Source: Woeseia oceani (GTDB lineage: Bacteria; Pseudomonadota; Gammaproteobacteria; Steroidobacterales; Woeseiaceae). Taken from it: DNA of 64,000 nucleotides. The translations under genes and the position numbers were made by a program. This document shows positions 41,798 through 48,864 of this stretch, one piece after another (position 1 is the stretch's first letter; the number at the start of each line of letters is the position of its first letter). The stretch covers positions 620,001 to 684,000 of the forward strand of contig NZ_CP016268.1 of the NCBI RefSeq assembly GCF_001677435.1. The letters run 5' to 3'. The notes under the pieces were generated by a model. That model saw only the letters and a program-made list of their open reading frames with translations, was not told the DNA's origin and did no database searches.

Positions 41798-42757
41798 ATG
41801 AATAAAGATCGCCTGCCCGCGGACGCGGTACTAGCCGCCAATCGCATATCACCCTACATCCGCCAGACGCCCCTGGAGCACTCGCCGTTTTTCAGCGAGC
41901 AGACCGGTGCCAATGTCTGGCTGAAACTGGAGAACCTGCAAATAACCGGTTCTTTCAAGTTGCGTGGAGCCTTCAACAAGCTGTTGTCCATGACCGCCGA
42001 CGAGCGCTCGCGGGGTGCGGTGACGGCATCCAGCGGCAATCACGGTGCCGCTGTGGCCTACGCCATGGCGCGCTTGAAAATGAAGGGCGTGGTGTTTGTC
42101 CCCGAGCAAACCTCCAGTGCAAAAGTCGATGCGATCAAACGCGCAGGCGCCGACGTGCGTTTCTTCGGTACCGATGGCCTGGATACTGAAATTCATGCCA
42201 TGGAATATGCTGCCGAACATGGCATGCACTACCTTTCACCGTACAACGACGCAGACGTCATCGCCGGTCAGGGTAGTTGTGGGGTCGAAATTGCGCGCCA
42301 AACGACCAAGCTGGATGCATTGTTCGTCGCGGTGGGCGGTGGTGGTCTGATCAGCGGCACCGCCGGGTTCCTGCGTTCGGCGTTTCCGGGGTTGCAGGTG
42401 ATCGGCTGCCAGCCAGCCGCTTCCTCAGTGATGGCAGAGTCGGTTCGCCGTGGAGAAATACTGGAGCTGCCCAGTTCTCCGACGTTGTCGGACGGTACCG
42501 CAGGCGGCATCGAAGCGGGTGCCATCACCTTCGAACTTTGCCAGGAATTCGTCTCTGATTTTGTGCTGGTCTCTGAAGAGCAAATCGCCGCGGCCATGCG
42601 CGATTTCATCGACGCTCACCACATGCTGCTGGAAGGGGCGGCCGGCGTGGCTCTGGCCGGATTGCGCAAGAAAACCCGGGAGATTCGTGGCAAGAACGTC
42701 ATTGTCATTATCTGCGGTGCAAATATCAGCCGCGAGACCCTGCGAAAAATCATCTGA
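41798..42757 (+). CDS. Threonine/serine dehydratase-family PLP enzyme
   Basis: A 319-residue fold-type II PLP enzyme. The PLP lysine is in GSFKLRGA near residue 54, the substrate loop SSGNHG near 80 and the phosphate-binding glycine loop GGGGL near 182. Without the C-terminal ACT regulatory domain of biosynthetic IlvA, it fits the catabolic threonine dehydratase or serine racemase/hydroxyectoine dehydratase-like (EutB) group. It may make 2-oxobutyrate from threonine or dehydrate a related hydroxy amino acid. No ectoine genes are nearby. It lies 65 bases ahead of the amidohydrolase gene. Confidence 0.88.
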   Translation: MNKDRLPADAVLAANRISPYIRQTPLEHSPFFSEQTGANVWLKLENLQITGSFKLRGAFNKLLSMTADERSRGAVTASSGNHGAAVAYAMARLKMKGVVFVPEQTSSAKVDAIKRAGADVRFFGTDGLDTEIHAMEYAAEHGMHYLSPYNDADVIAGQGSCGVEIARQTTKLDALFVAVGGGGLISGTAGFLRSAFPGLQVIGCQPAASSVMAESVRRGEILELPSSPTLSDGTAGGIEAGAITFELCQEFVSDFVLVSEEQIAAAMRDFIDAHHMLLEGAAGVALAGLRKKTREIRGKNVIVIICGANISRETLRKII

Positions 42758-42822
42758 TTCAAATGCTGGATGGAACGGCGACAGGGGTTGCTGTTCAAAG
42801 ACTGTTTAGAACGGAGTTGCGG

Positions 42823-44169
42823 ATGGTGCGTTACTGTCTGATTTTTCTTCTGTGGCTGTCGCAGATGCCCGCCGCAATGGCGGCCGAGGTCGCGTTCGTC
42901 AATGTCAATGTCGTTGGCCTGCAGGACGAGCGGGTCTTAACTGAGCAAACCGTGCTGGTACGCGATCAGCGTATTGTGTCGCTTGGGGCCGTGCAGGATA
43001 CCGAGGTACCTGAGGGTGCGTTGATCGTTGATGGCACGGACCGTTACCTGATGCCGGGCTTGTCCGAAATGCACGGCCACGTTCCCGCGGAAAGCGGTGT
43101 CGACCTGGAGCGGGTACTGGTCTTGTACGTGGCGAACGGTATAACCAACGTGCGCGGTATGCTGGGCAACGCAGCGCACCTGCAGCTCCGTACGGATATC
43201 GCAAGCGGTGAAGTCCTCGGGCCGCGACTGTACACCTCCGGACCCTCGTTCAACGGCAACAGTGTCAGTAGCCCGGGCCAGGCGGCCGATAAGGTACGCT
43301 CGCAAGCCGCGGCCGGTTTTGACTTTTTGAAAATACACCCCGGCCTGACCCGTGCTGAGTTCGTCGCAATGGCGAAGGCGGCTGAGGAAGCGGGCATCCG
43401 CTTCGCCGGCCATGTACCGGCCGATGTCGGTGTGCCGCTGGCATTGCAGCACGGCATCGCGACGATTGATCACCTGGACGGCTACATGCCTCTATTGGTA
43501 CCTGCCCATTCAGGTGCCAGCGGCGGTTTTGGCGGCTTTTTTGACGTATTCCTCGCGCCTTACGCCGACGAATCGTTGTTGCCAGCCGTGGCTCGGGCGA
43601 GCGCCGAAGCCGGTGTGTGGAATGTGCCAACACAAAGCCTGTTCGAGCACCTCGTCAATGCTGAGCCGGCCCAGCAGATGGCCGCCTGGCCCGAAATGAA
43701 ATACATGCCGGCGGCGACAGTCCGCCGTTGGGTGGAGAGCAAAAACGAACTGCAGGCCGACGCAGATTACAACGATGAACTCGCTGCTCGGGCGATCCTG
43801 TTGCGCCGGCAGTTGATCAAGTCTTTGCACGATGCAGGCGCAGGCTTGTTATTGGGCTCCGATGCGCCACAGGTTTTCAATGTCCCGGGATTCTCCATAC
43901 ACCGCGAGCTGGCGATGCTGGTCGAGGCGGGCCTCACCCCTTACCAGGCCTTGCGGACCGGCACTGTTAATGCCGCCCGCTGGCTCGGTCACGCGGGTGA
44001 GACCGGTACCGTCGAGCGTGGCCAGCGTGCCGACCTCGTATTGCTGGATGACAACCCGCTGGCGGATGTCAGAAACACGCGCCGTGTGCATGGCGTCATG
44101 TTGAACGGACGCTGGCTGGACCGGGCAGCACTGGACAGCTTGCTGCTGCCATTCGCGCGTCAACTCTGA
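42823..44169 (+). CDS. Secreted amidohydrolase (imidazolonepropionase-like)
   Basis: A 448-residue amidohydrolase with a signal peptide (MVRYCLIFLLWLSQMPAAMA). Metal-ligand residues are recognisable: HGH in EMHGHVPAE, the bridging lysine region FLKIHPGLT, histidines in FAGHVP and IDHLDGY, and the aspartate in LGSDAPQVF. This group includes secreted dipeptidases and Xaa-Pro dipeptidase-like enzymes, so a peptidase or amidase in the periplasm is likely. GGAG lies six bases ahead of the chosen ATG. Its last ten bases overlap the end of the broken oxygenase gene on the other strand. Confidence 0.88.
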   Translation: MVRYCLIFLLWLSQMPAAMAAEVAFVNVNVVGLQDERVLTEQTVLVRDQRIVSLGAVQDTEVPEGALIVDGTDRYLMPGLSEMHGHVPAESGVDLERVLVLYVANGITNVRGMLGNAAHLQLRTDIASGEVLGPRLYTSGPSFNGNSVSSPGQAADKVRSQAAAGFDFLKIHPGLTRAEFVAMAKAAEEAGIRFAGHVPADVGVPLALQHGIATIDHLDGYMPLLVPAHSGASGGFGGFFDVFLAPYADESLLPAVARASAEAGVWNVPTQSLFEHLVNAEPAQQMAAWPEMKYMPAATVRRWVESKNELQADADYNDELAARAILLRRQLIKSLHDAGAGLLLGSDAPQVFNVPGFSIHRELAMLVEAGLTPYQALRTGTVNAARWLGHAGETGTVERGQRADLVLLDDNPLADVRNTRRVHGVMLNGRWLDRAALDSLLLPFARQL

Positions 44170-45184
44170 TCGCGGTATTGCTCGGCGCGACGCAGCTCTC
44201 GCTCGCTGTGTTGTTGCTGCGTAAGGGCGTCGTACCGCGGTGGGTTGTCGGCATCCACACAACTGTCGAGCGGCGCTACTGTGACTCCATCATTGACCGC
44301 AAAAAACAGGACGAAGCTCATACGCTTCTGGTCGGTCATGCGTACCCGGTGGCCGGTTGCCTGGAACCGGCCGTTTGACCAGGCCTCCAGCATGTCGCCA
44401 AACAGTACGATCACCTGACGATCACCTGACGATCACTGGCGGTCGCATCGTGCCAACGACCTTGTGGGTCCCGCAGCTCGAGTCCGGCCGCGGTTTGATA
44501 CAGCAGCGTGATGCATTCAAAGTCTGTGTGCGCGGCGATCCCGACATCGCCCGGTTCGGCTTGCCGCTGTTGTCCTGGGTAGTGCAAAAGGCGCATGGTG
44601 CTGCGGTCCTGAGAGTCACATTGTGCCCGCAGGAACGGCGCCGGCTTATCGAGTGCGACCGAGATGGCGTCCAGCAATGCGAAACCGGCCTTGCTCAATA
44701 CATCCCATGCGTTGCGGCTGGCGTGGTGAAAGCCGGGGAGTTCGGGCCAGATACTGCTGTGCAGTGGGTCGTCATCACCGCGGCGTGGCCTGCCAAAATC
44801 AAACGATTCGACGTGCGCGCGTGTTCCCGGCTGATAGGCCGGTTCTCCGTACAGTGGCATCCAGCCGTGCTTTATCTGCCGTTTGGCAACAGAGACGGCT
44901 GCCTTGCGTTGGTCATCATCCGGGAGGCTGAAGAACTCATGCATTGAAGCGAGCAGTGCGAGATCAGCGTTGTTGTGGCTGAACAGGTTCTTGATCGCGA
45001 GGTAGCCGTTGCTCGCTGCCGCTGTGCTAATAAGTTGTACCACTGCGGGATTTACCGGTGCGCCGGAGAGCAGCCCGGCTGCATCGATACAGTCTGGCTG
45101 GACACCTGCGATGGTGTCAGGCGATGTGCTACGCAGATCGGTCGTTCTGGGCATGCCGCTCAGTCCCCTAATGACAGCAGTCAT
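44160..45184 (-). pseudogene. IPNS-family 2-oxoglutarate/Fe(II) oxygenase, frameshifted by an 11-bp duplication
   Basis: Two reading frames on the minus strand make one isopenicillin-N-synthase-like oxygenase. The first frame (45184 to 44411) gives 257 residues with the first iron ligands in AAHTDFECITLL. It stops just after a tandem repeat. The second frame continues with VLFGDMLEAWSNG, ATGHRVR (distal iron histidine) and RMSF (2-oxoglutarate binding) to 44160. Removing one 11-bp unit joins both into a 337-residue protein of normal family length. The truncated product lacks a metal ligand and the cosubstrate site, so it should be inactive. It could be a recent mutation, a switchable gene or an assembly error. 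Confidence 0.9.
44408..44436. repeat. 11-bp tandem repeat (2.6 copies) causing the frameshift
   Basis: CGATCACCTGA occurs at 44408-44418 and again at 44419-44429, followed by a partial CGATCAC at 44430-44436. With one unit fewer the oxygenase frame is continuous, so the ancestral state was 1.6 copies. The 11-base unit is not a multiple of three, so each gain or loss switches frame. Confidence 0.95.
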
Positions 45185-45298: not shown

Positions 45299-46012
45299 AT
45301 GAAAAGCACACTTATACTCGCCCTGTTTGTGGCGACTTTCGCGCACGCCGCGTGGAATGATTACGAAGAAGTCCGGGAATTGCGGCATTCTTCACAAGGC
45401 GTGGACGTACTCGACGTCAAAGCCGCGGCAGGTCGCCTGAACATCATTGGCGCACCCGGCGCCCGCCAGGTGACCGTAACGGCGACGGTCGTGTTGCCGG
45501 GTGTGGACCACAACAAAGCGGCAGAGCTGATCAAGCGCGATCTGGAGTTGAGCCTGGTGCCGGACGGCAACGTACTGCGGCTGGTGGCCCGCTTTGAGCA
45601 GAAGCGATGGTCGCTCGGCGCTAGCCCGCACGTGCACCTGGATGTACAGGTGCCATCGTCAATGGCATTGCGACTGGATGACGGCTCCGGCCCGCTGGAG
45701 GTGCGTGGGACGACTGCGGCCATTACCGTCGAGGATGGTTCCGGGTCGATTTCCCTGCGCGATACCGGTGGTCCGGTCAGTATCGATGACGGCTCCGGGT
45801 CCATTGAGCTGCAGAATATTGCCGGCGACGTGCATATTGTGGATGGCTCTGGCGGTATCCGGGTGCGCGGTGTGCAGGGCAGTGTCAGCATAGAAGACGG
45901 TTCCGGCGGCATCGATGTTCACAAGGTCAGTCACAACCTGACGATTCTGAACGATGGCTCGGGCGGAATTCGCTACTCTGATATTCAGGGTGCGGTGGAC
46001 GACCGCAGCTAA
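45299..46012 (+). CDS. Exported DUF4097-type beta-repeat protein with DGSG motifs
   Basis: A 237-residue protein with a signal peptide (residues 1-17, ending HAAW). The C-terminal half is made of about six repeats of near 18 residues, each centred on DGSG (LDDGSGPLEV, VEDGSGSISL, IDDGSGSIEL, IVDGSGGIRV, IEDGSGGIDV, LNDGSGGIRY), which fits the right-handed beta-helix of DUF4097/adhesin-type proteins. AAGAGG lies seven bases ahead of the ATG. The open frame upstream of 45299 is antisense to the oxygenase and not coding. Function of the family is unknown; envelope location is likely. Confidence 0.85.
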   Translation: MKSTLILALFVATFAHAAWNDYEEVRELRHSSQGVDVLDVKAAAGRLNIIGAPGARQVTVTATVVLPGVDHNKAAELIKRDLELSLVPDGNVLRLVARFEQKRWSLGASPHVHLDVQVPSSMALRLDDGSGPLEVRGTTAAITVEDGSGSISLRDTGGPVSIDDGSGSIELQNIAGDVHIVDGSGGIRVRGVQGSVSIEDGSGGIDVHKVSHNLTILNDGSGGIRYSDIQGAVDDRS

Positions 46013-47877: not shown

Positions 47878-48864
47878 TCAGTGAACTACGGCCCGGCCAA
47901 TGTAATTGGTATCGGTGCCGAACCAGATTTCGCCGGCCGGCTCAAAGTAGTGCATTTGCCGTACTGTCTTGCCGCCACTTGGAATAGCGGTTGACGAAAA
48001 GAACTGTTCGGTTGCCGTGTCGAAGCCGACCAGTACATTGGGGTTCAGGCCGGATTCGACTATCCAGATGCGGTCCAGCCGATCCACCGCCATGCCATGG
48101 GGTTCGCTGTCTTCGCCGCCCGGCATCGGCCACTCGCTGAATGCTCCGCTGTCAGGATCAAAACGACCCAGATAACCGCGTGCGAAATCCGCCCACCAGA
48201 TGCGATTGTCCGAGGTTGCTACGAGGCGTACCGGCCGGGCTTTTTTATTCGGCAATTCAATTTCCAGAACCTCCATGTTCGCGCTGTCGACCCGCAACAA
48301 CAGATTCCGCCCGAAGCCAGCGGCCCAAGGTTCGTCGAGCGAGTCAAGCACTATGCCGGTGGGTTTGGTTTTACGCGTGGGAATTTCCAGCAACGTTATA
48401 TCGCCATTCGCGACGGTCAACTTGCCAATGAAATTACCTTGCTGAACAGTGAACCAGATGTCGCCTGCAGAGTTGAAGATCAGAGTATGCGGGTCCCGTG
48501 CGCGGGAGTTCGGCATCTCGTGACGAGTGATCTGGCCGTTTGCCGGATTCAACTGGCCGATGTAGCGCTGCCGATTCGCACTGAACCAGAGGTCGCCATC
48601 AGCGTTGATGAGCAGACTCAGCGGGCGGGTGTCGCGATCGAGATCGTAGCGGCTGAAGTTGCCGGATTCAGGCTGCAGGTTGGCGACATAATCACTGCGT
48701 TGTCCGACGAACCAGACGCGGCCGCGCTGGTCGACGAACGGATCGCCCGGTTGTGAGTTTTCCCAGGGAACCAGCCACTCACTGATATCAACGGACTCTG
48801 CATTGCCCGTGTCAGGCCAGGCTGAGACCAGCATCAAGCTAATCAGCAGGAACCGTGTGTTCAT
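47878..48864 (-). CDS. Exported Vgb/SMP-30-like beta-propeller protein
   Basis: A 328-residue protein with a signal peptide (cleavage near GNAES, residue 22) and about seven propeller blades with repeats such as GRVWFVGQ, GDLWFSANRQ, GDIWFTVQQGN and NRIWWADFA. The pattern is that of virginiamycin B lyase (streptogramin lyase)-like proteins, but many family members have no antibiotic role. AGGCGACAGG precedes the ATG. It is 34 bases downstream of the class II aldolase gene and likely shares the mtnA transcript. The link with methylthioribose metabolism is not obvious. Confidence 0.8.
   Translation of the reverse strand: MNTRFLLISLMLVSAWPDTGNAESVDISEWLVPWENSQPGDPFVDQRGRVWFVGQRSDYVANLQPESGNFSRYDLDRDTRPLSLLINADGDLWFSANRQRYIGQLNPANGQITRHEMPNSRARDPHTLIFNSAGDIWFTVQQGNFIGKLTVANGDITLLEIPTRKTKPTGIVLDSLDEPWAAGFGRNLLLRVDSANMEVLEIELPNKKARPVRLVATSDNRIWWADFARGYLGRFDPDSGAFSEWPMPGGEDSEPHGMAVDRLDRIWIVESGLNPNVLVGFDTATEQFFSSTAIPSGGKTVRQMHYFEPAGEIWFGTDTNYIGRAVVH

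Follow-up and report, generated by a model that had tools for sequence, protein, structure and literature searches.

A long-kept Fe(II)/2-oxoglutarate (2OG) oxygenase gene of the Woeseiaceae has probably been inactivated in the marine-sediment bacterium Woeseia oceani by one recent slippage event. The gene, a 2OG-Fe(II) oxygenase on the minus strand at 44160-45184 of the window (the whole stretch of DNA analysed, 64,000 nucleotides long), is divided over two frames that meet inside an 11-bp array. As for the kind of event, the best reading is an ordinary one, namely a fresh loss-of-function frameshift by tandem duplication. The features of such a frameshift pseudogene are present, including intact orthologues at the same place, flanking direct repeats, and the lack of any further inactivation. 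The locus would thus represent a clean and datable case of gene loss under way, with the syntenic oxygenase intact across related genera, apparently freshly broken here, and seemingly deleted together with its neighbours in a congener. For the annotation of Woeseia oceani, the consequence is that its only PF03171 gene is best treated as interrupted. The accessible part of one publication (PMC12175321) mentions no dioxygenase and no pseudogene.

Two reading frames meeting in an 11-bp array

The N-terminal part of the gene is carried by ORF1 (44411-45184, minus strand), which encodes 257 aa with DIOX_N and the first part of 2OG-FeII_Oxy and ends in a TGA stop at 44413-44411. Its true start may be 45154 instead of the ATG at 45184, as several orthologues start with MPST or similar. 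The C-terminal rest of 2OG-FeII_Oxy is encoded in a different frame by ORF2 (44160-44414, minus strand; 84 aa), with a possible GTG start at 44414-44412. Both frames are open right to their ends, and the joined chain from the ATG at 45184 comprises 337 aa. On the PF03171 profile, ORF1 covers positions 4-62 and ORF2 positions 60-99 of 101, so that the halves are continuous. Both halves score above the Pfam cut-off, with 29.7 bits for DIOX_N (cut-off 27.3) and 25.4/30.6 bits for 2OG-FeII_Oxy (cut-off 23). Owing to the TGA within the array and the differing frames, a continuous single polypeptide is absent in this genome. The oxygenase is moreover the sole PF03171 match at E <= 0.001 in the 4.06-Mb genome, and therefore no backup paralogue exists within the PF03171 family.

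The HxD...H iron triad and the RxS motif are all encoded, but they are shared out between the two frames. ORF1 holds two iron ligands, those of the HxD motif (H219-T220-D221, codons at 44522-44530, minus strand), whereas the distal iron histidine (in ATGHRV, codon at 44349-44351, minus strand) and the 2-oxoglutarate motif R-M-S (codons at 44316-44324, minus strand) belong to ORF2. All five residues, namely the iron triad and the R and S of RxS, are invariant (29/29) in alignment A2, which contains 29 of the 40 related loci holding both halves. In the wider comparison of the related loci, the motif patterns did not pick up HxD in three remote cyanobacterial sequences and HxxRxS in one sequence. 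The initial annotation had described a gene placed in two frames by an 11-bp duplication, and this is borne out by the array, by the two Pfam-continuous halves, and by the one-frame arrangement in 40 of 40 relatives. It had also stated that the interrupted protein lacks the distal histidine and R-M-S while all key residues remain encoded; indeed, the former are encoded only in ORF2, and each key residue is found in one half or the other.

Taken over its two halves, the gene belongs to the DIOX_N plus 2OG-FeII_Oxy (PF03171) superfamily. NCBIfam gave no family match at E <= 0.1. Profile matches to the PDB include 9ovh (2.1e-43), 5c3p (6e-37), and 1bk0 (1.7e-20). By profile, the solved structures that come closest are those of a 2OG-dependent ethylene/succinate-forming enzyme, an iron/ascorbate oxidoreductase, and others; isopenicillin N synthase (IPNS) ranks far below them. 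The earlier label of an IPNS-family gene is therefore acceptable loosely, at the level of the superfamily, but IPNS proper is ruled out, given the lack of an NCBIfam equivalog and the far weaker match to IPNS than to other 2OG enzymes among the PDB hits.

The two frames meet in a perfect tandem array of the unit ACGATCACCTG (plus strand) at 44407-44436, which comprises 2.7 copies with a period of 11 and 100% match, lies within the coding region, and shifts the frame. All of its units are identical. One unit shorter, the array would read ACGATCAC-CTG-ACGATCAC, that is, an 8-bp direct repeat with a 3-bp spacer. A short direct repeat with a small spacer is a classic substrate for slippage. Perfect arrays with periods of 4-60 and at least two full copies were scanned in the 64,000 window bases and in 60 further 20,000-base stretches of this genome, together 1,264,000 bases or about 31% of the genome. 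Among the 55 arrays obtained, the one in the window is the longest. Markov-1 reshuffling (n = 3) of a 464,000-base subset yielded a mean of 12.7 arrays versus 21 observed, and none as long as the window array. Furthermore, its two-unit sequence has a single occurrence in the genome with up to two mismatches allowed. The window array is beyond chance, and the 11-bp duplication is known from one assembly only. GATC also occurs three times in the array, at a spacing of 11 bp or roughly one helical turn; so deep in a coding region this probably has no meaning.

Orthologues, neighbours and the age of the break

A total of 99 genomes, the own genome included, were searched, and a separate contig scan gave 41 related loci; many contigs are shared between the two, and their counts are not summed. 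Many of the 41 loci are labelled Woeseiaceae or Woeseia, and the others Gammaproteobacteria or other groups. One locus (L067) is cut by a contig end and was excluded from the comparison of the junction. In all of the 40 loci holding both halves, these form one open frame with no stop between them. No 11-bp array was found at the junction site in any of the 40 relatives within 160 bases around the site, where a 5- or 7-bp unit occurs twice somewhere in four of them. The initial annotation had proposed comparing the same site in related genomes, naming extra inactivating mutations as the outcome that speaks against a recent event; the gene proved intact in 40 of 40. Two candidates for independently broken copies (L005 and L024, 'stops inside') were rejected, as three-frame translation puts the stop before the start and leaves the gene intact. 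Their contigs appear as L038 and L063 in the 41-locus scan, and the gene is intact there too.

The oxygenase is not kept everywhere. A match at E <= 1e-20 was present in 22 of 60 same-genus or same-family genomes, and all 27 genomes of genus g10 were without a match better than 4.0e-8. This distribution suggests that loss of the oxygenase gene is common, with genus g10 as a sign of further losses.

Conservation within the broken gene was used to judge the age of the break. A position counted as conserved if its column reached at least 90% conservation among 16 syntenic orthologues, and these intact genes were themselves scored in a leave-one-out scheme. Of the 73 conserved positions the window gene retains 68, with 48 of 51 before the break and 20 of 22 after it. 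Its score of 0.932 is the third lowest of 17, and the 16 intact orthologues range from 0.848 to 1.0. The break looks recent because the conserved positions lie within the range of intact genes and the array units are identical. The previous statement that the rest of the gene has not decayed, and hence that the change is recent, is upheld at the conserved positions, with 'no decay' being based on conserved columns and not on a close sister gene, since even the nearest intact orthologues share only 38-48% identity. In the tree, the window row has no firm place and carries the second longest end branch (1.0 versus a median of 0.32). The long branch and the low rank at conserved columns could mean that constraint was relaxed before the duplication, or that close relatives are simply missing.

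The surroundings of the gene point to a settled position. The convergent neighbour is an intact amidohydrolase-like gene (42763-44169, plus strand), found near the oxygenase in 7 of the 41 related loci. A threonine/serine dehydratase (41798-42757, plus strand; NF005292, 437 bits, cut-off 371) accompanies it in 16 of 41 loci, and a TPR gene in 11 of 41. The divergent neighbour (45299-46012, plus strand) is a LiaG-like repeat protein, a weak assignment with 32.5 bits against a cut-off of 285. In 18 of the 41 loci the oxygenase has at least one of its window neighbours close by, and it is therefore taken to be long settled at this place. The gene order around it is common to other Woeseiaceae.

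The only same-genus genome listed (G001; 89% complete, 6% contamination) has the genes for TamB, dehydratase, CBS, TPR, TonB, Vgb-like, aldolase-like, and MtnA-like proteins collinear with the window on one contig. In its dehydratase-CBS interval (L141, G001:C340:20001-36000), the amidohydrolase, the oxygenase, and the LiaG-like gene are unmatched at E <= 1e-3, and the interval measures about 0.2 kb versus about 3.3 kb in the window. This is most simply read as a deletion in G001, because other genera keep the oxygenase, and often the amidohydrolase or the LiaG-like gene, at this place. The oxygenase gene seems to be dispensable in the genus, as the congener has lost it along with both neighbours.

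Two further observations concern this neighbourhood. The dehydratase and the oxygenase are convergent neighbours even in small genomes of 1.1-2.0 Mb (genus g5; L044-L048, L050, and L070), and their pairing in these loci and in the window (41798-45184) hints at a common pathway. The Vgb-like protein of the window (47878-48864, minus strand) scores 84.8 bits to VgbB, well below the cut-off of 600, and so is not labelled as a streptogramin lyase.

Origin of the break and competing explanations

As a likely course of events, the former gene would have contained the 8-bp direct repeat with its copies 3 bp apart, and in replication a backward slip of the new strand by 11 bases would have added one unit. 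Translation would then stop at the TGA inside the array, so that the 257-aa chain would lack both the third iron ligand and the RxS motif. In the model of an intact orthologue (L041; pLDDT 87.9, pTM 0.89), with the position matched by alignment, the break falls in the strand 248-252. The chain would accordingly be cut within a strand of the double-stranded beta-helix, which is the catalytic fold. From the known chemistry of the family, ORF1 alone should be inactive, because the third iron ligand and RxS are missing and the cut lies inside a core strand.

It is unlikely that the break is an assembly or sequencing error and that the strain has one unit fewer and an intact gene, even though the gene is otherwise undamaged, only one assembly shows the break, and false frameshifts in reference genomes are known, giving such an error a precedent (PMC12817950, accessible part). 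The array measures 30 bp in all, short enough to fit within any read. Moreover, an exact duplication of 11 bp is not of the homopolymer error type.

Other arrays of the genome bear on both this explanation and the next. The second-longest array comprises 2.7 copies of a 10-bp unit (L079:2860-2886, G000:C1:302860-302886) and resembles the window array in its build, with a 7-bp repeat and a 3-bp spacer. It divides a DUF7380 gene remnant over two frames, with Pfam DUF7380 matches on both sides, and adjoins a truncated end. An array of such like build may mean that slippage is habitual in this organism, or that the assembly tends to produce such arrays. The period is not divisible by three in 22 of the 55 arrays. 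The length rule of the scan flagged the window, L081, and L091 and overlooked L079, which was recognised by eye. Read by eye, L081 and L091 were discarded as gene-splitting arrays, as their genes look intact and seem to gain a longer frame through the change only by chance. Gene-splitting arrays were thus recognised in 2 of 55 cases (the window and L079, the latter in a gene remnant) with 31% of the genome sampled, and two are too few for a system of contingency loci.

The initial annotation had also raised the possibility of a slip-prone on/off switch, in which copies are gained and lost at a high rate and the present allele is one phase. The array does consist of perfect tandem units within a coding region, their length is no multiple of three, the loss of one unit would reopen the frame, and all key residues are still encoded. 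Additionally, there is a precedent in mexT of Pseudomonas aeruginosa, where clean excision of an 8-bp insertion restores the gene under selection (PMC3200333, accessible part). Nevertheless, a switch is quite improbable here and the suggestion is not supported: none of the 40 relatives has the array at this site, its two-unit sequence is unique in the genome, and it comprises only 2.7 copies. For a contingency tract, even three copies would be a small number. No class of contingency loci is visible in the sampled 31% of the genome, where only two of 55 arrays look gene-splitting, and the product of this monocistronic gene is an enzyme of metabolic type, not a surface structure. Furthermore, the gene has been lost outright, with both neighbours, in the congener. 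Duplications do not revert automatically either, as is illustrated by the agrA duplication, which yielded no revertants according to the accessible part of PMC6686034. A literature search for 11-bp tandem duplication frameshifts that revert in bacteria found none, and the locus is not claimed to be unreported beyond that.

It is very improbable that the gene is used in its split form, either by a re-start at the GTG behind a new Shine-Dalgarno-like site or by a ribosome frameshift, with the pieces assembling. What invites this idea is the sequence GTGA at 44411-44414 (minus strand), in which the possible GTG start of ORF2 overlaps the TGA stop of ORF1, together with the Shine-Dalgarno-like AGGTGATC (44420-44427, minus strand) put 5 nt before the GTG by the duplication. 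The latter presumably pairs with the 3' tail of 16S rRNA, the anti-Shine-Dalgarno sequence used being an assumed one. On this assumption, and not with the own 16S rRNA, the duplex of AGGTGATC reaches -13.3 kcal/mol, which is stronger than the -8.8 in the first-copy GTG context before duplication, and only 0.37% of 3000 random 20-mers of the window are as strong. The array unit contains GATCACCT, the complement of AGGTGATC; its likeness to the 16S tail is trivial in origin, so that chance suffices. The own 16S rRNA was found neither by pattern nor by RF00177 (control: 9 of 14 known genomes positive), with the genome listed as 100% complete. Additionally, the break lies within a core strand of the L041 model, and none of the 40 relatives is split. 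The C-terminal piece may be made, but it is unlikely that the halves work together. Still less probable is the fuller proposal that the duplication in one step made a stop, an overlapping GTG, and a ribosome-binding site, giving two coupled cistrons whose products may re-assemble and which may be re-fused by losing one unit. A switch or a coupled split enzyme, if true, would be of wider interest; both have little support. Recent inactivation by a single slippage event is thus preferred as the explanation of the locus.

Comparison with known systems

As an enzyme, the oxygenase has its domains, the HxD..H triad, and RxS in common with 9ovh (2OG-dependent ethylene/succinate-forming enzyme), 5c3p (thymine dioxygenase), and, at a further distance, 1bk0 (isopenicillin N synthase). 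It differs in that the window gene is without an NCBIfam family match.

With regard to the break, the simple-sequence-repeat contingency loci known from phase variation are similar in having tandem units in a coding frame, but the window array has 2.7 copies of an 11-bp unit and is absent from relatives. Another comparison is with mexT of Pseudomonas aeruginosa, whose inserted 8 bp presumably form a tandem repeat. In PAO1, this small insertion, likewise not divisible by three, inactivates a gene of a reference strain and can be cleanly lost (PMC3200333, accessible part). However, mexT encodes a regulator whose reversion is strongly selected for and whose alleles are known to differ between strains, whereas the oxygenase is known from one assembly. 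The best match is found in the frameshift pseudogenes that arise from short tandem duplications by slipped-strand mispairing. In these, a segment flanked by direct repeats is doubled, the frame is lost, orthologues are intact, and no other decay is seen, and there is no essential difference from the case in the window.
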